Source: an uncultured Oscillospiraceae bacterium | GTDB taxonomy: Bacteria; Bacillota; Clostridia; Oscillospirales; Oscillospiraceae | NCBI GenBank assembly: GCA_900752285.1 | Contig: CAADUW010000121.1 | Location: forward strand, 1-7,201 | Length of the DNA: 7,201 bases | Direction: 5' to 3' | Made by a program: the position numbers and the translations under genes | In this document: one piece after another, positions 147-7,201 of the stretch | Layout: every line of letters starts with the position of its first letter | Numbering within the stretch: position 1 is the first letter of the stretch | Notes under the pieces: generated by a model | What the model was told of the DNA's origin: nothing | The model's database searches: none | What the model saw: the letters and a program-made list of their open reading frames with translations, nothing else

Positions 147-1013
147 ATGGATTTTCTCACCGACTGGCTCACGAACTGGCTGAAAGAGCTGTTGATCAGC
201 GGTATCATGGGGAACCTCGAAGGGCTTTTTGATACCGTCAATGCCAAAGTCGGAGAGATTGCGGTACAGGTAGGGACTACCCCGGCGGCATGGAACGCCG
301 GGGTTTTCTCCCTCATCCGCCAGCTTTCCGAAACGGTGATCCTGCCGATTGCCGGATTGGTGCTGACCTTTGTTGCCACCTACGAGCTGATACAGATGCT
401 TTTGGAAAAGAACAATATGCACGAGTTTGATGTGGCGAATATCTACAAATGGGTATTCAAAACCGCTTGTGCCATCCTCATTCTTTCCAACACCTTTAAT
501 ATTGTCATGGCGGTGTTCGATGTGTCGCAGAGCGTGATTGCGGATGCGGCGGGGCTCATCCAAGGCTCCACCGACATTACGCCGGATATGCTGACGGAGC
601 TGGAAACCACGCTGGAGGGCATGGACTTGGGGCCGCTCCTTGGCCTGTGGCTCCAGTCCTCTGTGATCGGGCTGACCATGCAGATCATGGGGATCATCAT
701 TTTCGTTCTGGTGTACGGAAGAATGATTGAAATATATTTAATGACCAGTCTGGCCCCTCTCCCCGTTGCCACGCTTTCCAACCGGGAGCTGGGCGGCACA
801 GGGCAGAACTACCTAAAATCCCTGTTCGCCGTGGGCTTTCAAGGGATGCTCATACTGGTCTGTGTTGCGATCTATGCGGTGCTCATCCAAGGCATCGCCA
901 CAGGCGGCGATCCGATTGGAGCGATATGGGGAACCGTGGGCTATACGGTTCTTCTGTGCTTCATGCTGTTTAAGACAGGCGGCATCGCCCAGCGCATCTT
1001 CGGGGCGCATTAA
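147..1013 (+). CDS. TrbL/VirB6-like conjugal transfer membrane protein
   Basis: This 288-residue protein is very hydrophobic and fits the polytopic inner-membrane channel component of Gram-positive T4SS (TrbL/VirB6 class). It has an amphipathic N-terminus (residues 1-40) and likely membrane helices near 64-84, 103-125, 168-192, 226-250 and 258-276. A more polar loop spans about 130-165 (STDITPDMLTELETTLEGMD), probably outside the membrane. The segment MTSLAPLPVATLSNRELGGT (199-218), with its SLAP and small-residue pattern ahead of the last helices, is typical of this family as I know it. The ATG at 147 is preceded by AAGGAGGG at 136-143, right after the Maff2 stop. Its position between Maff2 and the PrgI/VirB4 genes matches Tn1549-type elements. 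It probably forms part of the DNA translocation channel with PrgI and VirB4. No frameshift or truncation is seen. The class assignment is solid; the exact subfamily is not resolved. Confidence 0.88.
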   Translation: MDFLTDWLTNWLKELLISGIMGNLEGLFDTVNAKVGEIAVQVGTTPAAWNAGVFSLIRQLSETVILPIAGLVLTFVATYELIQMLLEKNNMHEFDVANIYKWVFKTACAILILSNTFNIVMAVFDVSQSVIADAAGLIQGSTDITPDMLTELETTLEGMDLGPLLGLWLQSSVIGLTMQIMGIIIFVLVYGRMIEIYLMTSLAPLPVATLSNRELGGTGQNYLKSLFAVGFQGMLILVCVAIYAVLIQGIATGGDPIGAIWGTVGYTVLLCFMLFKTGGIAQRIFGAH

Positions 1014-1021
1014 ACGGACGG

Positions 1022-1046
1022 ACTTCGGGACAATTTGTCCCGAGGC
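1022..1046 (+). repeat. 25-base palindromic repeat, copy 1 (intergenic)
   Basis: Arms ACTTCGGGACA and TGTCCCGAGGC flank the three bases ATT. Bases 1025-1043 form a perfect dyad. As RNA it would fold into a hairpin of about 10 pairs with one G-U pair and a three-base loop. No T-run follows, so it is not an intrinsic terminator. It fills most of the 47-base gap between the TrbL-like gene and spoVG and lies just upstream of the spoVG ribosome-binding site. Confidence 0.85.
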
Positions 1047-1050
1047 CGGG

Positions 1051-1058
1051 AAAGGAGG
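1051..1058 (+). promoter_or_regulatory. Ribosome-binding site of the SpoVG gene, unusually close to the ATG
   Basis: AAAGGAGG ends only two bases before the ATG at 1061, which is tighter than usual. The in-frame TTG at 1067 sits eight bases after it, a better distance. Either codon could be the start, and the choice changes the product by only two residues. Confidence 0.6.
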
Positions 1059-1060
1059 AA

Positions 1061-1615
1061 ATGATTTTGGATAAGGATGTCATATTAACCCCGGAACAGA
1101 TCGCCGCCGAGGAGCGGCGCTGGCTGTTCGATGCGCCGATTGCGGAACTGGCCGAGGTAAAAGGCGTGACGGTGGACGAGGCGGTTAAGCTGCGGACGGA
1201 CGCAATTTTGCAGGAGGCCGCTGTTCCCATCGAAGTCACGGTTCGCCCGATTGAGCCCCAGGGCAAGCTCATCGGCTTTGCCAGCGTCAACTATGGCGGT
1301 GTAGTGATTGACGATTTCAAGGTGGTGGATGGTAAGAACGGGATTTTCCTCGGGGCTCCCAGCAAACCCGATCCCACCAGCAGGACGGGCTACCGCTCCA
1401 CAGTGCGGATCAATGACCGGGCCACCCAGGAGCGGCTCAATGCGGCGGGAGCCCAGGCGTACCATTCAGCGGTGGAAAAGCTCATCGCCCGGGCCGAGGC
1501 AGTCCGCCCCACCCCGATCAAGGAGCAGATGGCACAGGCCGCAAGGGAGGCCGGGAAGGAAAATGCCGCCCGAACCGCCCCGGCAAAGAAGAAGGAGGCC
1601 CGGGATGACAGGTGA
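1061..1615 (+). CDS. SpoVG-domain protein with N- and C-terminal extensions
   Basis: The central part of this 184-residue protein, about residues 57-145, resembles SpoVG, a small nucleic-acid-binding regulator of Firmicutes. The opening strand (EVTVRPIEPQGKLIGFASV) is followed by VVIDDFKVVDGKNGIFLGAP (81-100), with SK next, which matches the SpoVG core of an (I/V)xDGxNGxFxxxPSK pattern. Canonical SpoVG is about 85-100 residues. Here an acidic N-terminal segment of about 55 residues (TPEQIAAEERRWLFDAPIAE) precedes the core. A basic, Ala/Lys-rich tail (151-184) follows it and may add nucleic-acid contacts. The gene overlaps the downstream methyltransferase start by 11 bases, so the two are translationally coupled. 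I infer an accessory regulator or DNA/RNA-binding partner of the transfer operon rather than a sporulation protein. The start is ATG 1061 or TTG 1067. Fold call moderately sure; role unknown. Confidence 0.75.
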   Translation: MILDKDVILTPEQIAAEERRWLFDAPIAELAEVKGVTVDEAVKLRTDAILQEAAVPIEVTVRPIEPQGKLIGFASVNYGGVVIDDFKVVDGKNGIFLGAPSKPDPTSRTGYRSTVRINDRATQERLNAAGAQAYHSAVEKLIARAEAVRPTPIKEQMAQAAREAGKENAARTAPAKKKEARDDR

Positions 1616-2399
1616 TGTGACCTCGAGACAAATTGTCCCGAAGTCTCCAGCCTGCCCGGAGGGGCTGTTTTTGATGGACGGGATTGAAGGGCTGCGCTCT
1701 TTGCCGAAGCACTCGGTTGATATGCTCCTTACCGATCCGCCCTATGGCACTACCCGGAACTTTTGGGATGTGCCGCTCCCGCTCCCGGAGCTGTGGGAGG
1801 CGGTCAAGTGGGCGGTCAAGCCGGATGGCGCAGTGCTGTTTTTCGCACAATGCCCCTATGATAAGGTGCTGGGGGCATCCAACCTCTCTATGCTCCGCTA
1901 TGAATGGGTGTGGTACAAAAGCAGGTGTACTGGCTTTCTCAATGCAAGGCGGGCTCCCTTAAAACGGACGGAAAACATTCTGGTGTTTTATCAAAAATTG
2001 CCCTATTACGATCCGCAGTTTGAACAGGGCAAGCCCTATAAGAAAATTTCCCGGACAGGGGACAACAGCCCCAACTATGGAAAATTCCTGCGTTCCAGCA
2101 GCGGATCAGAGGATGGCCTTCGTTTCCCCGGAAACCTGCTGGCCTTTTCTTCCGTACAGCGTACCGTCCACCCCACGCAGAAACCCGTGGAGCTGTGCGA
2201 GTATCTCATCAGAACCTATACCCGGCCCGGGGAGGTAGTGGCAGACATCTGCGCTGGCTCCGGCACGACTGCTGTGGCTGCTGTCAATACGGGCCGCCGC
2301 TTTGTATGCTTTGAAACCGCCCCGGCCTTTTACGCCCCAGCTACAGAACGCATCCGGCTGGCTACTGAGGCGGTCAAAGCCGGGCAGAAAGGAGTATGA
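1605..2399 (+). CDS. Beta-class DNA methyltransferase (N6-adenine or N4-cytosine), no restriction partner
   Basis: This 264-residue enzyme is predicted to transfer a methyl group from S-adenosylmethionine to a DNA base. The catalytic motif IV DPPYG is at residues 44-48, preceded by SLPKHSVDMLLT. HPTQKP (189-194), the hallmark at the start of the SAM-binding half, is followed by motif I DICAGSGTT (214-222). The order IV then I defines the beta class (N6_N4 family, relatives of M.HinfI/CcrM). The target-recognition part should lie between, around 100-180 (KSRCTGFLNARRAPLKR and on). DPPY motifs favour adenine, but N4-cytosine cannot be excluded. The ATG at 1605 has GGAGG at 1594-1598, six bases away; a longer upstream frame reaching back to about 1308 is only spoVG read out of frame. 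Residues 6-13 (TSRQIVPK) are encoded by a palindromic repeat, so the first ~17 residues are probably dispensable. It overlaps spoVG by 11 bases and the next gene by 4. Likely role: anti-restriction or marking of the element's DNA. Confidence 0.9.
   Translation: MTGDVTSRQIVPKSPACPEGLFLMDGIEGLRSLPKHSVDMLLTDPPYGTTRNFWDVPLPLPELWEAVKWAVKPDGAVLFFAQCPYDKVLGASNLSMLRYEWVWYKSRCTGFLNARRAPLKRTENILVFYQKLPYYDPQFEQGKPYKKISRTGDNSPNYGKFLRSSSGSEDGLRFPGNLLAFSSVQRTVHPTQKPVELCEYLIRTYTRPGEVVADICAGSGTTAVAAVNTGRRFVCFETAPAFYAPATERIRLATEAVKAGQKGV
1620..1644 (-). repeat. 25-base palindromic repeat, copy 2 (inverted, inside the methyltransferase start)
   Basis: On the minus strand this reads ACTTCGGGACA, ATT, TGTCTCGAGGT. 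It has the same three-base centre as copy 1, and its arms differ at two positions. Its arm asymmetry (TT on one side, GG on the other) places it opposite to copies 1, 3 and 4. It lies 15 bases after the methyltransferase start codon and encodes TSRQIVPK there. It could also form a hairpin in the mRNA just past the start codon, which might affect translation. Confidence 0.8.
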
Positions 2400-3100
2400 C
2401 TATCGGAAACTATTCTATCATTTACGCCGATCCCCCTTGGCAGTACCAGCGCAGTAAGGTACAGGGGGCGGCAGAAAACCATTATCCCACAATGGGGATT
2501 GACGAGCTGTGTGCGCTCCCGGTGGCTGATCTGGCCGCCCCGGACAGCGCACTTTTTTTGTGGGCGACTTTCCCCCAGCTCCCGGAGGCCCTGCGGCTCA
2601 TAGAGGCGTGGGGCTTCCGCTATAAGTCTGTGGCCTTTGTCTGGCTGAAAAAGAATAAAAAGGCAGACAGTTGGTTTTATGGTCTTGGCTTCTGGACGAG
2701 GGGAAATGCGGAAATCTGCCTGCTGGCTACCAAGGGCCATCCCAAACGGCAGGCGGCAAATATCCATCAGTTTATCATTTCCCCGATTGAAGCCCACAGC
2801 AAAAAGCCGGACGAGGCCCGGGAAAAGATCGTGGCCCTTATGGGCGACCTGCCCCGGGTGGAGCTCTTTGCCAGACAGTCCCCGCCCGGCTGGGAGGTGT
2901 GGGGAAATGAAGTGAAAAGCACGATCCCGGACTTTGGGCTCATGGGGCCCCCGCAAAATCAGCGATTTTGTGGGGAGAGGAGGAACAACGGAGCGGACGG
3001 ACTTCGGGACAAAGTGTCCCGAGGTAGTCAAGCGGAGTTTGTGACCACGAGTCCCGAGGTTAAAGGGGCCGGAAAGGAGGCTGATCCATGCCCTATGTGA
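2396..3100 (+). CDS. MT-A70 family adenine methyltransferase with an extended, repeat-derived tail
   Basis: This 234-residue protein starts at the ATGA shared with the previous stop. It carries the MT-A70 catalytic motif DPPW at 12-15 (IIYADPPWQYQ), then HYPTM (29-33), LFLWAT (53-58) and GLGFWTRGNAEICLLATKG (96-114), whose G-x-G-x-x-x-R-x-N-x-E pattern is typical. HSKKPDE (134-140) and RVELFARQSPPGWEVWGNE (154-172) close the domain. Members methylate adenine N6; phage and mobile-element versions act on DNA. The enzyme core ends near residue 173, which is where small family members normally stop. Residues about 174-234 are unlike the family. They are translated from two hairpin-forming repeats and a half repeat and end inside the prgI start, so the tail looks like read-through of former intergenic DNA. 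The gene overlaps prgI by 13 bases. With the preceding enzyme it forms an orphan methyltransferase pair, possibly giving two methylation specificities. Confidence 0.88.
   Translation: MTIGNYSIIYADPPWQYQRSKVQGAAENHYPTMGIDELCALPVADLAAPDSALFLWATFPQLPEALRLIEAWGFRYKSVAFVWLKKNKKADSWFYGLGFWTRGNAEICLLATKGHPKRQAANIHQFIISPIEAHSKKPDEAREKIVALMGDLPRVELFARQSPPGWEVWGNEVKSTIPDFGLMGPPQNQRFCGERRNNGADGLRDKVSRGSQAEFVTTSPEVKGAGKEADPCPM
2949..2975 (+). repeat. Strong hairpin with 12-base arms and a 3-base loop
   Basis: CCCCGCAAAATC (2949-2960), loop AGC, then GATTTTGTGGGG (2964-2975). All twelve positions pair as RNA, one of them as G-U. It lies in the atypical tail of the MT-A70 gene and is followed by GAGAGGAGGAA rather than a T-run, so it is not a standard terminator. 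It may be a REP-like element or an mRNA processing or stability hairpin left from an earlier intergenic region. Confidence 0.75.
2994..3025 (+). repeat. 25-base palindromic repeat, copy 3, with a 7-base left flank shared with copy 1
   Basis: The palindrome is at 3001-3025: ACTTCGGGACA, AAG, TGTCCCGAGGT. As RNA all eleven arm positions pair (one G-U). The preceding CGGACGG is also found before copy 1 at 1015-1021, so CGGACGGACTTCGGGACA is an 18-base exact direct repeat 1,979 bases apart. This copy is translated as LRDKVSRG in the MT-A70 tail, a different frame from copies 2 and 4. Confidence 0.85.
3051..3060 (+). repeat. Right-arm half copy of the palindromic repeat
   Basis: GTCCCGAGGT matches the right arm of copy 3 at 10 of 10 bases, with no left arm. 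It is followed by GGCCGG and AAAGGAGG (3067-3080), the prgI ribosome-binding region. Copy 1 is likewise followed by GGCCGG, one extra G and AAAGGAGG (1044-1058) before spoVG, so the two leaders look related. Confidence 0.6.
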
Positions 3101-3483
3101 ATGTACCCAACGACCTGTCAAAAGTAAAAACCAAAATGGCCCTAAACCTTACCAAGCGCCAGCTCATCTGTTTTGGCTGTGCGGCGGCGGTAGGCATCCC
3201 GTCCTATCTGCTGGCCCGGGGCTCTATCGGCAATACCGGGGCCATGTTCCTTATGCTGGCCGTGATGCTCCCGGCGTTTCTTCTGGCCATGTATGAAAAA
3301 GACGGGCTCCCGGCGGAAAAGGTGCTGAAAAACATCATACGGGCCCGGTTTCTGCGGCCCGGAGTCAGGCCCTATCAGACACAAAACATTTACGCCCCCT
3401 TTGCCGGACGGGGCGCTGTGAGAAAGGAGGATGCGATTGCGAAAGGCAAATCCAACCAGCGGAAGAAAAACCGCAAAGGCTAA
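3088..3483 (+). CDS. prgI: PrgI-family T4SS inner-membrane protein
   Basis: This 131-residue protein has the PrgI layout. A short cytoplasmic start (MPYVNVPNDLSKVKTKMALN) and the LTKRQLICF segment lead into two membrane helices at about 25-43 and 48-69. A short conserved cytoplasmic stretch follows (YEKDGLPAEKVLKNIIRARF, 69-88), and the C-terminus is very basic (KGKSNQRKKNRKG). The family, named after PrgI of pCF10, is a VirB3-like partner that tethers VirB4 to the membrane, and its gene almost always sits directly before virB4, as here. AAGGAGG at 3074-3080 lies seven bases before the ATG. The start overlaps the MT-A70 end by 13 bases, and the 3' end overlaps the virB4 start by about 50, so all three are probably translationally coupled. 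No defect is seen. Confidence 0.9.
   Translation: MPYVNVPNDLSKVKTKMALNLTKRQLICFGCAAAVGIPSYLLARGSIGNTGAMFLMLAVMLPAFLLAMYEKDGLPAEKVLKNIIRARFLRPGVRPYQTQNIYAPFAGRGAVRKEDAIAKGKSNQRKKNRKG
3424..3430 (+). promoter_or_regulatory. Ribosome-binding site of virB4, touching the ATG
   Basis: AAGGAGG directly abuts the ATG at 3431 with no spacer, which would be poor for initiation. The in-frame TTG at 3437 lies six bases downstream of it and is the more plausible start. The spoVG gene shows the same ATG-NNN-TTG arrangement. Confidence 0.55.
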
Positions 3484-5800
3484 AAACCGGGCGGCCCTGT
3501 CCGCCCAGCAGACGATCCCCTATGTGGCGATGCACCCGGACGGGGTATGCAAGCTCCCCGGCGGGCTCTACACAAAGACCGTGGAATATGAGGACATCAA
3601 TTATTCCGTGGCATCCACCGAGGATCAGACTGCGATCTTTGGCGGCTGGAGCTCATTCCTCAACTACTTTGACAGCTCCCTGCCGTTCCAGCTTTCCTTT
3701 ATCAACCGCCGCTCCCACTCCCGGAGCCGCTATAAGGTAAACATTCCCCAAGCGGATGATGATTTTAACAGCGTCCGGGAGGAATTTACCGGGATGCTGA
3801 AAAACCAGATCGCCCGGTCTAACAACGGGATTGAACGCTCCAAGTACATTACTTTCGGCATCCCAGCCGGAGGGATCGTGGAGGCCCGGCCCCGTCTGGA
3901 GCGTGTGGAGGCCGATGTGATGGGCAACTTTAAGCGGCTGGGTGTTCCCTGTGAACCGATGGACGGGCGGGCAAGGCTGGCCCTGCTTCACAGCCAGATG
4001 CATCCGGGCAACCGGGAACCGTTCCGCTTTTCATGGAAGGACATCCCGCAGACGGGGCTCGGCACCAAGGACTATATTGCCCCGGACAGCTTTGACTTCC
4101 GGCACTCCCGCCTGTTCCGGGTGGGCCAGTATTGGGGCGCTGTTTCCTACTTGCAGATTTTGGCGTCTGAGCTCTCGGATAAACTGCTGGCAGAAATTCT
4201 GGAGCTGGATGCGGAAATGACCGTAACCCTCCATATCCAGACGGTGGATCAGCTAAAGGCCATCAAAACCATCAAGGGAAAAATCTCCGACATCGGAAAA
4301 ATGAAGGTGGAGGAACAGCGGAAGGCTGTCCGAGCCGGGTACGATCCCGACATTCTCCCGCCCGACCTCATTACCTTTTCCAAGGATGCGGCGGAGCTCC
4401 TTGCCGACCTCCAGTCCCGCAACGAGAGGATGTTCCTTTTGACTTTTACGGTAGTCAATATGGCCCCTACCCGCCAGCGGCTGGAAAACGATGTGTTTAC
4501 CGTGGGCGGCATCGCACAGAAATACAACTGCGCCCTCAAGCGGCTGGACTGGCAACAGGAGCAGGGCTTTGTGTCCTCGCTGGCTCTCGGCTACAACGAA
4601 GTGGAGATCCAGCGTGGTATGACAACCAGCTCCACGGCAATTTTCATCCCCTTTATGACAAGGGAGCTGCGGATGGACGGGCAGGCCCTCTACTATGGCA
4701 TGAACGCCCTTTCCCACAATGTCATTATGGCTGACCGTAAAAAGCTGAAGTCGGCCAACGGAATGTACCTCGGCTCTACGGGCTCGGGAAAATCCTTTGC
4801 GGCAAAGCGGGAACTGCTCAATGTCTTTCTGACCATCCCCCAGGATCGGATTATCATTGTTGATCCGATGGGTGAATATGCCCCGCTGGTTCGCAGGCTG
4901 GGCGGACAGGTGATCGAGATTGCCCCGGACAGCCCCCACCACCTAAACCCGATGGATGTGGAGCTTAACATGGCCGCCGGGGAGAGCCCCCTTTCCATGA
5001 AGGCGGATTTCCTGCTTTCCCTGTGCGAGCTGGTGGTAGGCGGAAAGGAAGGCTTACAGCCCATCGAAAAGACAGTTGTTGACCGCTGTGTGCGGCTGGT
5101 GTACCGGGAACAGGCCCTTGGGCTTGATACGGGAAAAACCCCGCTTTTGCAGGACTTGTACGAGGAGCTCTTGAAACAGCCGGAGCCCGAGGCCCGGCGT
5201 GTGGCAACCGCCCTTGAGCTCTACTGCACCGGCTCCCTCAACCTGTTTAACCATCCCACGAATGTGAAAACCGACAGCCGGGTGGTGTGTATCGTGCTGA
5301 AAAACATGGGAGAAAACCTCCGCAAGATCGCCATGCACATCACAAATGAATTTGTGTCCCAGGCGGTAGATACCAACTTCCGGGAGGGCGTGGCGACATG
5401 GTGCTACTTCGATGAGTTCCATGTCCTGCTCCGTGATCCGCTGACCGCCAGCTATTTTGTGGCGGTGTGGAAAATGCTGAGAAAGAAAGGCTGCGTTCCC
5501 AGCGCCCTCACGCAGAATGTAAAAGACCTTCTGGCCAGCCGGGAGATTGAGAACATTCTGGATAACACCGATTTTATGATTTTGCTCTCGCAAGCTCAGA
5601 GCGACCGGGCGATTTTGGCAAGACAGCTCGGTATTTCCGAGCATCAGCTTTCCTACATTACCCACTCTAATTCCGGCGAGGGCCTGCTGTTTTACGGGAA
5701 TGTGACCATCCCGTTTGTGGATCGGTTCCCGAAGGGGGAAATCTATGACCTCTTAACCACCCGACCGGAGGATATGAAGAATGAAGCGAAAACCGAATAA
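3431..5800 (+). CDS. virB4: VirB4-like T4SS ATPase
   Basis: At 789 residues this has the normal length of the conjugation ATPase that energises substrate transfer through the membrane channel. The N-terminal domain begins after a basic, poorly conserved leader with AQQTIPYVAMHPDGV and continues with YTKTVEYEDINYSV, typical of VirB4 proteins from Tn1549-type elements. The C-terminal RecA-like motor has Walker A GSTGSGKS at 448-455, IIIVDPMGEYAPLVRRLGG soon after, Walker B CYFDEFH at 658-664, TQNVKDLLAS, and the terminal motif LLSQAQSDRAILARQLGIS. All key nucleotide-binding residues are present, so it should be active. It sits at the cytoplasmic face with PrgI and TrbL/VirB6. The start is uncertain: ATG 3431 abuts the Shine-Dalgarno sequence, while TTG 3437 is better spaced; the product differs by two residues. 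The reading frame is intact. The last 20 bases overlap the next gene. Confidence 0.95.
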   Translation: MRLRKANPTSGRKTAKAKNRAALSAQQTIPYVAMHPDGVCKLPGGLYTKTVEYEDINYSVASTEDQTAIFGGWSSFLNYFDSSLPFQLSFINRRSHSRSRYKVNIPQADDDFNSVREEFTGMLKNQIARSNNGIERSKYITFGIPAGGIVEARPRLERVEADVMGNFKRLGVPCEPMDGRARLALLHSQMHPGNREPFRFSWKDIPQTGLGTKDYIAPDSFDFRHSRLFRVGQYWGAVSYLQILASELSDKLLAEILELDAEMTVTLHIQTVDQLKAIKTIKGKISDIGKMKVEEQRKAVRAGYDPDILPPDLITFSKDAAELLADLQSRNERMFLLTFTVVNMAPTRQRLENDVFTVGGIAQKYNCALKRLDWQQEQGFVSSLALGYNEVEIQRGMTTSSTAIFIPFMTRELRMDGQALYYGMNALSHNVIMADRKKLKSANGMYLGSTGSGKSFAAKRELLNVFLTIPQDRIIIVDPMGEYAPLVRRLGGQVIEIAPDSPHHLNPMDVELNMAAGESPLSMKADFLLSLCELVVGGKEGLQPIEKTVVDRCVRLVYREQALGLDTGKTPLLQDLYEELLKQPEPEARRVATALELYCTGSLNLFNHPTNVKTDSRVVCIVLKNMGENLRKIAMHITNEFVSQAVDTNFREGVATWCYFDEFHVLLRDPLTASYFVAVWKMLRKKGCVPSALTQNVKDLLASREIENILDNTDFMILLSQAQSDRAILARQLGISEHQLSYITHSNSGEGLLFYGNVTIPFVDRFPKGEIYDLLTTRPEDMKNEAKTE

Positions 5801-7201
5801 ACCACGCCCGGAGTCCCAAACGCATACGGAACCCGGAGGCGGAGCTGCCGAGCCCGGGGGCTCTGCTTTTGGGGCTGGCTCTGAACAGGAGCCCGGGGCG
5901 GCTGGCACTTCGGGACAAAGTGTCCCAAAGTCAAAATTCCGGCAGAAAAGCCAGCAGGAACAAGCGGCGGCATCCAAGCTCCGCATGGAAAAGCGGGGCG
6001 AAAAACGGGAGGCCGCCCGGGAAAAGCTGGCAAAGCAGAAGCCGCCCAAACAAAAAGGCCCGATCCGTAAGGCGGCGGGGGCCGCCGGATGGGGCGTTCA
6101 CGGCTTTGTGCATGGCAAGCTCTACGAGGTGGAGCAGGAAAATGTAGGAACGGAAGGGGCCCACCGTTCGGAGCTTGCCGGGGAGGTTATCCTGCGGCAT
6201 GGCTCCCGGTTTGTAAAGCGCAAAGTCCGGGAGCATCCGGCAAGGGCGGCCAGCCGGGCCGAGGCCAGGTATCAGAAAGCGGCGGCGGATTATCATTTCC
6301 ACACCGCCGCACAGGAGCACCCGGAGCTTTCCAAAAACTATTTTACCCGGTACTGGCAGAAACAGCGGCTTAGAAGGCAATACCAGAAGCGGGCGAAGGA
6401 GGCCGCAAAACAGAGCGCAAAAGCCGCCGGGAAAACAGCCGCCGCCACGGAAAAGCTGACAGCCCGGGCCGCCGGGTTTGTGAAGCGCCATCCAGTCGGA
6501 TGCCTGCTGGCGCTGGCCTGTGTCCTTGTGATCGTCCTGCTCCAGTCCTGTTCGTCCTCGCTGGTGTCCATCGGCAACGCCGGAGCCGGGGCGCTGGGAG
6601 CCACCACTTACCCCTCTGCGGATGAGGCGATTTTAGGGGCGGAGGCGGCTTATGCCGGGCTGGAGGCAGAACTGCAAACCTACCTTGATACTTACGAAAG
6701 CACCCATGATTATGATGAGTACCACTTCGATCTGGACGAGATCGAACACGATCCCTATGTGCTCATTTCCCTGCTGTCGGCACTCCATGAGGGGGAATGG
6801 ACGCTTTCACAGGTGGAGGGCTCCCTGCAAATGCTCTTTGACCGCCAGTATATTCTGACGGAGCGTGTGGAGGTGGAGACACGCTATGACAGCGACGATG
6901 AACCCTATTCGTGGTACATCTGCTATGTGACGCTGGAAAACAAAAACCTGTCCCACCTGCCTGTTTCCTTGTTGAGCGAAGAACAGATGTCCCGGTATTC
7001 CATCTATATGTCCACCCTCGGCAACCGTCCCGACCTGTTTCCCGACTCTCCCTATGTGGACAAATACATTACCAACCCGCCGGAGGGCTATGAGGTTCCG
7101 GGGGAATATCTGGACGATGAAACATTCGCCGCTATTTTCTCGGAGGCAGAGAAATACATCGGCTATCCCTATGTGTGGGGCGGCTCCAGCCCGTCTACAT
7201 C
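5781..7201 (+). CDS. CD1108-like membrane-anchored NlpC/P60 cell-wall hydrolase (partial, 3' end outside window)
   Basis: The frame is open from ATG 5781 to the window edge (473 complete codons). GGAGG at 5767-5771 lies nine bases upstream, inside the end of virB4. Residues 1-60 are Pro/Gly/Ala-rich and partly encoded by a palindromic repeat. About 60-235 are strongly basic and probably cytoplasmic (EKRGEKREAAREKLAKQKP). One membrane helix spans about 239-256 (VGCLLALACVLVIVLLQSC). The outside part follows, with YPSADEAILGAEAAYAGLEA and an acidic region (HDYDEYHFDLDEIEHDPYV) of the kind seen in CD1108-type proteins. The NlpC/P60 peptidase domain begins at EKYIGYPYVWGGSSPSTS; the catalytic Cys, expected within the next few residues, lies beyond the window. 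The family cuts peptide stems of peptidoglycan to let the transfer channel cross the wall, as VirB1 does in Gram-negatives. A position right after virB4 is typical. The family call is strong; the active site cannot be checked here. Confidence 0.88.
   Translation, partial: MKRKPNKPRPESQTHTEPGGGAAEPGGSAFGAGSEQEPGAAGTSGQSVPKSKFRQKSQQEQAAASKLRMEKRGEKREAAREKLAKQKPPKQKGPIRKAAGAAGWGVHGFVHGKLYEVEQENVGTEGAHRSELAGEVILRHGSRFVKRKVREHPARAASRAEARYQKAAADYHFHTAAQEHPELSKNYFTRYWQKQRLRRQYQKRAKEAAKQSAKAAGKTAAATEKLTARAAGFVKRHPVGCLLALACVLVIVLLQSCSSSLVSIGNAGAGALGATTYPSADEAILGAEAAYAGLEAELQTYLDTYESTHDYDEYHFDLDEIEHDPYVLISLLSALHEGEWTLSQVEGSLQMLFDRQYILTERVEVETRYDSDDEPYSWYICYVTLENKNLSHLPVSLLSEEQMSRYSIYMSTLGNRPDLFPDSPYVDKYITNPPEGYEVPGEYLDDETFAAIFSEAEKYIGYPYVWGGSSPST
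5907..5931 (+). repeat. 25-base palindromic repeat, copy 4 (inside the NlpC/P60 gene)
   Basis: ACTTCGGGACA, AAG, TGTCCCAAAGT. It has the same centre as copy 3 but two right-arm bases differ: one breaks a pair near the stem base and one restores A-T in place of the G-U. It is read in frame as TSGQSVPK within the low-complexity N-terminus, so it causes no frame damage. Confidence 0.8.

Follow-up and report, generated by a model that had tools for sequence, protein, structure and literature searches.

What do four 25-base palindromes do in the transfer region of a conjugative element? The stretch of DNA analysed here (the window; 7,201 nucleotides) is, by profile matches of its gene content, a portion of an ICE transfer operon of the CD1110/Tn1549 type. 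A sequence-only reading had picked out the palindromes and offered three candidates for them: operators for an element-encoded regulator, mRNA hairpins, or a REP/MITE-like mobile palindrome. The window stops short of the position at which its relatives carry parB, and any ParB of its own would lie outside the sequence; the distribution of the palindrome was judged from relatives' genomes.

Four palindromes at gene junctions of the transfer operon

The perfect palindrome reads ACTTCGGGACA-N3-TGTCCCGAAGT, from which sites 1 to 4 differ at 2, 2, 1 and 1 bases, respectively. The coordinates and 25-base lengths reported for the four copies were confirmed (Table 1), as was the inversion of the second copy, whose asymmetry is in reverse orientation. 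All four lie at gene junctions of the ICE, as had been proposed; site 1 falls between the TrbL stop at 1013 and the SpoVG-like start at 1061. When up to three mismatches were allowed, the core pattern matched four times in the window compared to a mean of 0.00 matches in 200 dinucleotide shuffles, so that a similar frequency by chance, named earlier as a refuting outcome, did not occur. The half copy reported at 3051 proved too weak to be counted. Three copies had also been described as translated in differing frames, which is correct for copy 3 only (1/3): sites 2 and 4 are translated in one common frame, as TSRQIVPK and TSGQSVPK, and site 3 in a frame unlike theirs.

Table 1. Predicted ParB sites and genes of the window (coordinates are window positions)
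Feature	Setting	Coordinates	Strand	Sequence or profile match
Site 1, predicted ParB site	Intergenic, TrbL/VirB6-like–SpoVG-like	1022..1046	+	ACTTCGGGACAATTTGTCCCGAGGC; 2 mismatches to palindrome
Site 2, predicted ParB site	Codons 6-14 of N6/N4 methylase; inverted asymmetry	1620..1644	-	ACCTCGAGACAAATTGTCCCGAAGT
Site 3, predicted ParB site	MT-A70 C-terminal tail, 75 nt ahead of PrgI start	3001..3025	+	ACTTCGGGACAAAGTGTCCCGAGGT
Site 4, predicted ParB site	Codons 43-51 of CD1108-family protein	5907..5931	+	ACTTCGGGACAAAGTGTCCCAAAGT
Half-site-like stretch	Past site 3; left out of site count	3050..3060	+	Best 25-mer 3036-3060, 6 mismatches
TrbL/VirB6-like channel gene		147..1013	+	PF19478, E 2e-63
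SpoVG-like gene		1061..1615	+	PF04026, E 2.7e-8
N6/N4 DNA methylase		1605..2399	+	PF01555, E 2.4e-23
MT-A70 family methylase		2396..3100	+	PF05063, E 6.8e-28
PrgI family protein		3088..3483	+	PF12666, E 4.3e-32
VirB4-like transfer ATPase, CD1110 family		3431..5800	+	NF045971, 984 bits (cut-off 325)
CD1108 family protein	Continues past window edge	5781..7199	+	NF045974, E 6.9e-74

Two further features of the window are recorded here. The operon encodes a SpoVG-like protein (1061-1615) adjoining two DNA methylases. At the left edge (1-70) the window diverges from its relatives at about base 56, within a small gene upstream of TrbL. In the G012 element, which is near-identical to the window (98% over 1100 bases), the counterpart of this edge is a large serine recombinase with relaxase-like and replication genes. 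This gene set resembles the mobilizable elements that Maff2-related ICE genes harbour, as far as the available part of that report describes them (PMC5704250).

The copies keep their places in related elements and are absent from flanking DNA

A contig scan with the pattern ACTTCGGGACA-N3-TGTCCCGARGT matched at least 120 stretches. Among the matches listed, hosts whose group is given in the title were nearly all Clostridia or other Firmicutes, with exceptions that include a Chloroflexi MAG (L043) and an Aeriscardovia MAG (L092). Sorting the 120 stretches listed by tblastn gave 32 with only the ICE proteins of this type, 24 with ICE proteins and parB, 5 with parB only, 43 with MobV and/or RepA of another, mobilizable element and no parB in the stretch (21 of which also match the ICE), 4 with both parB and MobV/RepA markers, and 12 without any marker. 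Genome-wide, the matches listed cluster in elements, and other mobile elements hold single copies.

Three whole-looking elements (G001, G018 and G002) carry 12, 14 and 25 sites over 24, 22 and 38 kb, with median site spacings of 1.8, 1.5 and 0.9 kb. With the limits of these elements drawn by gene content and sites, the 34, 15 and 20 kb of flanking DNA scanned held 0 sites. The sites of G002 have a different core, with GGGCCA in both arms. Each of the three thus has multiple candidate operators dispersed over the element, as a KorB-type system does, and the element-restricted distribution that had been suggested as a sign of an operator was observed: copies in mobile elements, none in the flanks of these three.

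We then scored orthologous junctions in relatives, counting the window among the sources, some of which are closely related to each other. A site was present at the site 1 junction in 8 of 17 scorable sources, at the same place in the site 2 junction (+27 or +28 from the start codon) in 15/15, and at the site 4 junction in 21/22. The site 3 junction held a site 26-75 nt before PrgI in 22/22 sources when this wide interval was used; a narrower interval found it in 7/22 because it had been extrapolated from the window's longer MT-A70. For three of the window's four positions combined, 58 of 59 scored junctions carried a copy, and absence of the motif from orthologous junctions, the second outcome named as refuting, did not occur.

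These observations bear on whether the copies could be REP/MITE/RPE-like repeats, small palindromes able to move and multiply within the element. Elements hold the motif many times over, at some places in coding frames; these features, the single copies in other mobile elements, and an array of palindromes in one parB gene (L081, described below) are what such spreading could produce. Genome dispersal independent of one element was not seen in the flanks of the three elements, copies keep their places at the junctions of sites 2, 3 and 4, and where elements have different ParB contact residues, the arms change in concert across all copies. We give the mobile-palindrome candidate almost no credence.

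A motif-independent survey anchored on VirB4 found this gene in 76 of 391 genomes. In the 60 examined of the places listed, this palindrome family was present as repeated copies in 2 (L141 and L142), whose VirB4 proteins are 94% and 72% identical to the window's. A palindrome score at L168 was rejected, as runs of N had given a false signal. A distant VirB4 relative (L199; 35%) has four copies of a different palindrome, ATTCCCAACATTGGGAAT, which may be another ParB-type site family.

ParB genes in genomes that carry these sites

A ParB match at E<=1e-25 was found in 28/29 genomes or records carrying motif loci. A ParB hit at L122 was rejected as false. The ParB gene of the relatives lies ~4 kb upstream of the genes matching the window's, and in G001, G002, G012 (contig C22) and G018 the transfer genes are preceded by a gene for a long ParB, on the same stretch in G018; in G429 ParB is on the same viral record. 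In those elements scanned, a site is located in or directly after the long ParB gene. Within the stretches examined, two motif-bearing sources, G005 and G012 contig C19 (G012b), had no ParB. The ParB has a GHRR motif, a ParB fold match, and an N-domain of the CTP-binding type together with an HTH, and an AlphaFold2 model (pLDDT 83.5) matches the DNA-binding domains of ParB-parS, Noc-NBS and KorB-operator complexes.

Wherever an element showed both its ParB gene and its transfer genes (nine cases: G001, G002, G012 C22, G018, L355, L366, L368, L369 and L372), it held 8-25 sites. At 14-15 of 20 window-type ParB loci there were 0-6 sites; most transfer genes are missing from these stretches (L371 has two of the seven window genes, L364 one, the others none), and sites are therefore few where the transfer region is out of view.

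A palindrome of the same kind is encoded within parB genes

The motif-selected loci included a second kind, in which the palindrome lies within a shorter parB gene, in frame, just before the HTH codons. A parB set independent of the motif was built in two ways. One ParB served as query against 391 genomes of the class, of which 80 matched (90 of the 119 parB matches listed were examined), and a ParB alignment search of IMG/VR added 64 loci. The 142 loci with a tblastn match were reduced to 131 with a recognisable HTH (11 without) and, after 9 duplicates were removed, to 122 distinct genes.

The stretch before the HTH had at least 10 of 12 palindromic pairs in 103 of the 122 genes, compared to 11 of 2177 control windows from the same genes, and the best palindrome centre was in frame 0 in 115/122. 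The arms vary between genes yet stay palindromic. Synonymous codon reshuffling over the whole scanned range left a mean of 6.9 pairs at the best centre, where the real genes have 10.6 (p<0.05 in 107/122 genes), and a more lenient reshuffling with a fixed centre gave 5.3 pairs against 10.8 observed (109/115 genes). As the in-gene palindromes exceed reshuffled codons with amino acids held fixed, selection acts on nucleic acid. Fourteen of the 122 parB genes, the window clade's included, have no good in-gene site.

If RNA were the selected form, the palindromes would be hairpins in the polycistronic mRNA that act in processing, stability or translation control. The near-perfect 11-12 bp stems and the copies at gene junctions are consistent with this, and on the sense strand of the scattered copies G-U outnumbers A-C (59 to 39). 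The balance is opposite in the 108 in-gene sites, where A-C, which cannot pair, outnumbers G-U in sense (39 to 21). At position 7, in the middle of the stem of the scattered copies, sense-strand A-C accounts for 14 of 15 mismatches and G-U for 0. The sites have no Rfam match (the sole match over the window is sub-threshold and away from them), and inspection of the window sequence confirmed that no T-run follows the palindromes; they thus resemble neither rho-independent terminators nor an Rfam family. The arms, moreover, covary with the DNA-reading residues of ParB, as described in the following section. An RNA hairpin role is, we think, very unlikely, and this candidate of the sequence-only reading fared poorly in the in-gene sites, with mixed results in the scattered copies.

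ParB residues and palindrome bases change together

Covariation was analysed across 266 ParB columns, excluding the residues coded by the palindrome itself, in the 108 parB genes whose palindromes have 9 or more pairs, an effective number of 56; residue numbers follow L157. The best-covarying residues for palindrome positions 6, 7, 8, 9, 10 and 11 were 159, 161, 173, 173, 177 and 200, respectively, and the amino acid/base code in these in-gene sites is near-deterministic. At residue 159, R goes with G in 32/34 genes, E with C in 11/11 and K with T in 11/11; at residue 161, R goes with G in 20/21. For residues 172-173, RN goes with CC (18/19), GR with GA (11/12) and YK with GA (5/5); at residue 177, R goes with C (103/103) and K or N with A (5/5); and at residue 200, R goes with C (16/16). 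In a leave-one-out test with the nearest neighbour less than 60% identical, residues 159, 161, 172 and 173 predicted positions 6-9 in 79% of cases, compared to 35% (SD 3%, maximum 42%) when four other variable columns were drawn at random 300 times, without matching for entropy.

Residues 161, 172, 177 and 200 correspond to Caulobacter Q162, R173, N178 and G201 in a profile alignment to Thermus Spo0J combined with motifs given in the accessible text of PMC7383237; the profile search alignment was used since that from a single-sequence PDB search ended ahead of the HTH. According to the same text, all four Caulobacter residues contact DNA, and R at 201 reads cytosine (PMC7383237). Residues 159 and 161 are only 1-3 residues past the palindrome-coded stretch, and the outer palindrome position 2 covaries with the flanking columns 142-147, so part of the 159/161 covariation could reflect local linkage.

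The in-gene code was next used to predict scattered sites in 16 elements, of which 15 were scored and one (L367) was dropped, its ParB being unalignable. In these 15 elements, which are mutually related and three of which hold only two sites, positions 6 and 10 were each predicted correctly in 15/15. Position 8 was correct in all 14 elements whose residue pair is present in the training set, and position 9 in all 10 clear cases (YK), with four VK cases tied between C and T, where C was observed. Position 11 was correct in 8/8 testable elements; M200 of the window clade does not occur in the training set. Position 7 was right in 7 elements, wrong in 7 and untestable in one, V161 predicting C where G was observed. 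Site bases therefore match recognition residues by covariation and by prediction, as expected of a ParB-parS pair, with position 7 failing in 7/14.

Variation among the elements bears on residue 159. The ParB of L372 has L instead of R at this residue, and the sites at its orthologous junctions read TGGACA instead of GGGACA; L159 goes with T at position 6 in 3/3 in-gene cases (L224, L225 and L257). L232 and L292 share the TGGACA site but have K, not L, at 159. Because the bases of the motif change in step with the DNA-reading residues of ParB across elements, we predict that the binding partner of the palindromes is very probably the element's ParB. The operator candidate of the sequence-only reading is strongly supported, and the predicted regulator is identified as a member of the ParB family.

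A proposed role in control of the transfer region

We hold with good confidence that the four palindromes, predicted ParB loading sites of the parS/operator type, serve a ParB that likely acts as a KorB-like regulator of the transfer genes. The ancestral state, still present in many relatives, would be a parB with a single in-gene site, often with parA adjoining; the window's clade probably lost both parA and the site within parB, and acquired sites spread along the transfer region. ParB would load at sites 1-2 kb apart and slide along the element in the manner of a CTP-dependent clamp, and ParB on the element would regulate the transfer genes as KorB of plasmid RK2 does, with silencing the favoured sign. 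We infer from the sequences that ParB physically binds the sites, that it loads as a clamp in a CTP-dependent way, and that it regulates, including the sign of that regulation. It is likely that the clamp controls or packages the element, and most likely that a partition module became a KorB-like regulator.

The same ParB sites might instead serve maintenance, with ParB coating the excised circle for partition or compaction, perhaps with a ParA borrowed from the host or a co-resident element. The sites span the entire element, and 35 of 60 loci unselected by motif have a parA no more than 3 kb from parB, both of which would suit such a role. The corresponding count for loci with window-type ParBs, some of them on short contigs that may explain some of the absences, is 0/23; parA adjoining parB, as in ParABS systems, was thus not found for window-type ParBs, and we judge 12-25 sites to be more than partition needs. 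An N-terminal ParA-contact motif was matched in 17 of the 35 scorable ParBs (of 122) and also in 1/4 window-type ParBs. We regard a maintenance role as possible though doubtful.

By analogy, ParB at these sites could also activate or anti-silence the transfer genes, like BisD of ICEclc and VirB of Shigella. BisD resembles the window-type protein in being a ParB-domain protein of an ICE, with a regulator role that is known for BisD and proposed here, and together with BisC it switches on transfer genes (PMC7423338, available text); BisD and VirB are both named as ParB-type regulators in the accessible part of PMC12704722. BisD differs in being proteobacterial and in acting with BisC, and the part of its description available mentions no scattered palindrome family (PMC7423338). 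Activation appears to us rather unlikely, and a KorB-like regulator with silencing as its favoured sign is the reading that we carry forward.

A broader proposal, which we hold only somewhat more firmly than we doubt it, is that ParBs of a very large family of gut-Firmicute mobile elements carry their DNA target within parB, beside the HTH codons, in a code readable from genomes; that in the window's lineage this partition module would have lost ParA and turned into an element-wide clamp-loading system with a site every 1-2 kb; and that mobilizable elements without ParB may exploit the same sites.

Comparison with known systems

Compared to KorB-OB of RK2, the system predicted for the window belongs to a Gram-positive ICE and has a different, 25-bp site; window-type sites lie at junctions inside a long operon. 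KorB-type regulators repress element promoters with a KorA-like partner. It shares with chromosomal ParB-parS and Noc-NBS the fold, the GHRR motif and the HTH, with residues 161, 172, 177 and 200 at the Caulobacter contacts. R200 here is associated with C, in agreement with R201 of Noc in the available text of PMC7383237. Unlike in ParB-parS and Noc-NBS, the ICE-type site is 25 bp long with highly variable arms, and residues 159 and 173 add specificity. In B. subtilis one parS is located within parB, as stated in the part of PMC4442127 at hand; what is one site there is the rule in a large family here.

In the titles and abstract openings searched, mostly of open-access literature, we found no publication on these sites, on a family-wide occurrence of the ParB site within parB, or on such a code. 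An unexplained repeat becomes a named, predicted protein-DNA system, one that points to a means by which gut conjugative elements of a common lineage may regulate their transfer region. The parB genes also form a natural data set in which many ParB specificities are readable from sequence, most of the variable bases being predictable from a few residues. How ParB specificity evolves, a question so far dissected for the ParB/Noc pair as described in the accessible text of PMC7383237, becomes testable at scale.

Site specificities held in common raise the possibility of competition or exploitation between elements. SGI1, a mobilizable element, carries parS copies for the ParB of another element (PMC10954446, available part). 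It resembles the GGGACA-site loci without parB found here; proteins and hosts differ, and the parallel is at the sequence level only. These loci (L026, L063, L115 and other MobV/RepA loci) have one or two GGGACA sites near repA and no parB in the stretch, and some of the GGGACA sites in this group of mobilizable elements adjoin a TGGACA palindrome. In a Lachnospiraceae parB (L081, 46-1356, - strand) about nine palindromes occur in frame, their arms differing from one another. Two of these copies (TCGACA) fit the gene's own HTH by the code and the others resemble sites of other ParBs (GGGACA and GGGCCA); the array could be a collection of rivals' sites, or of decoys.
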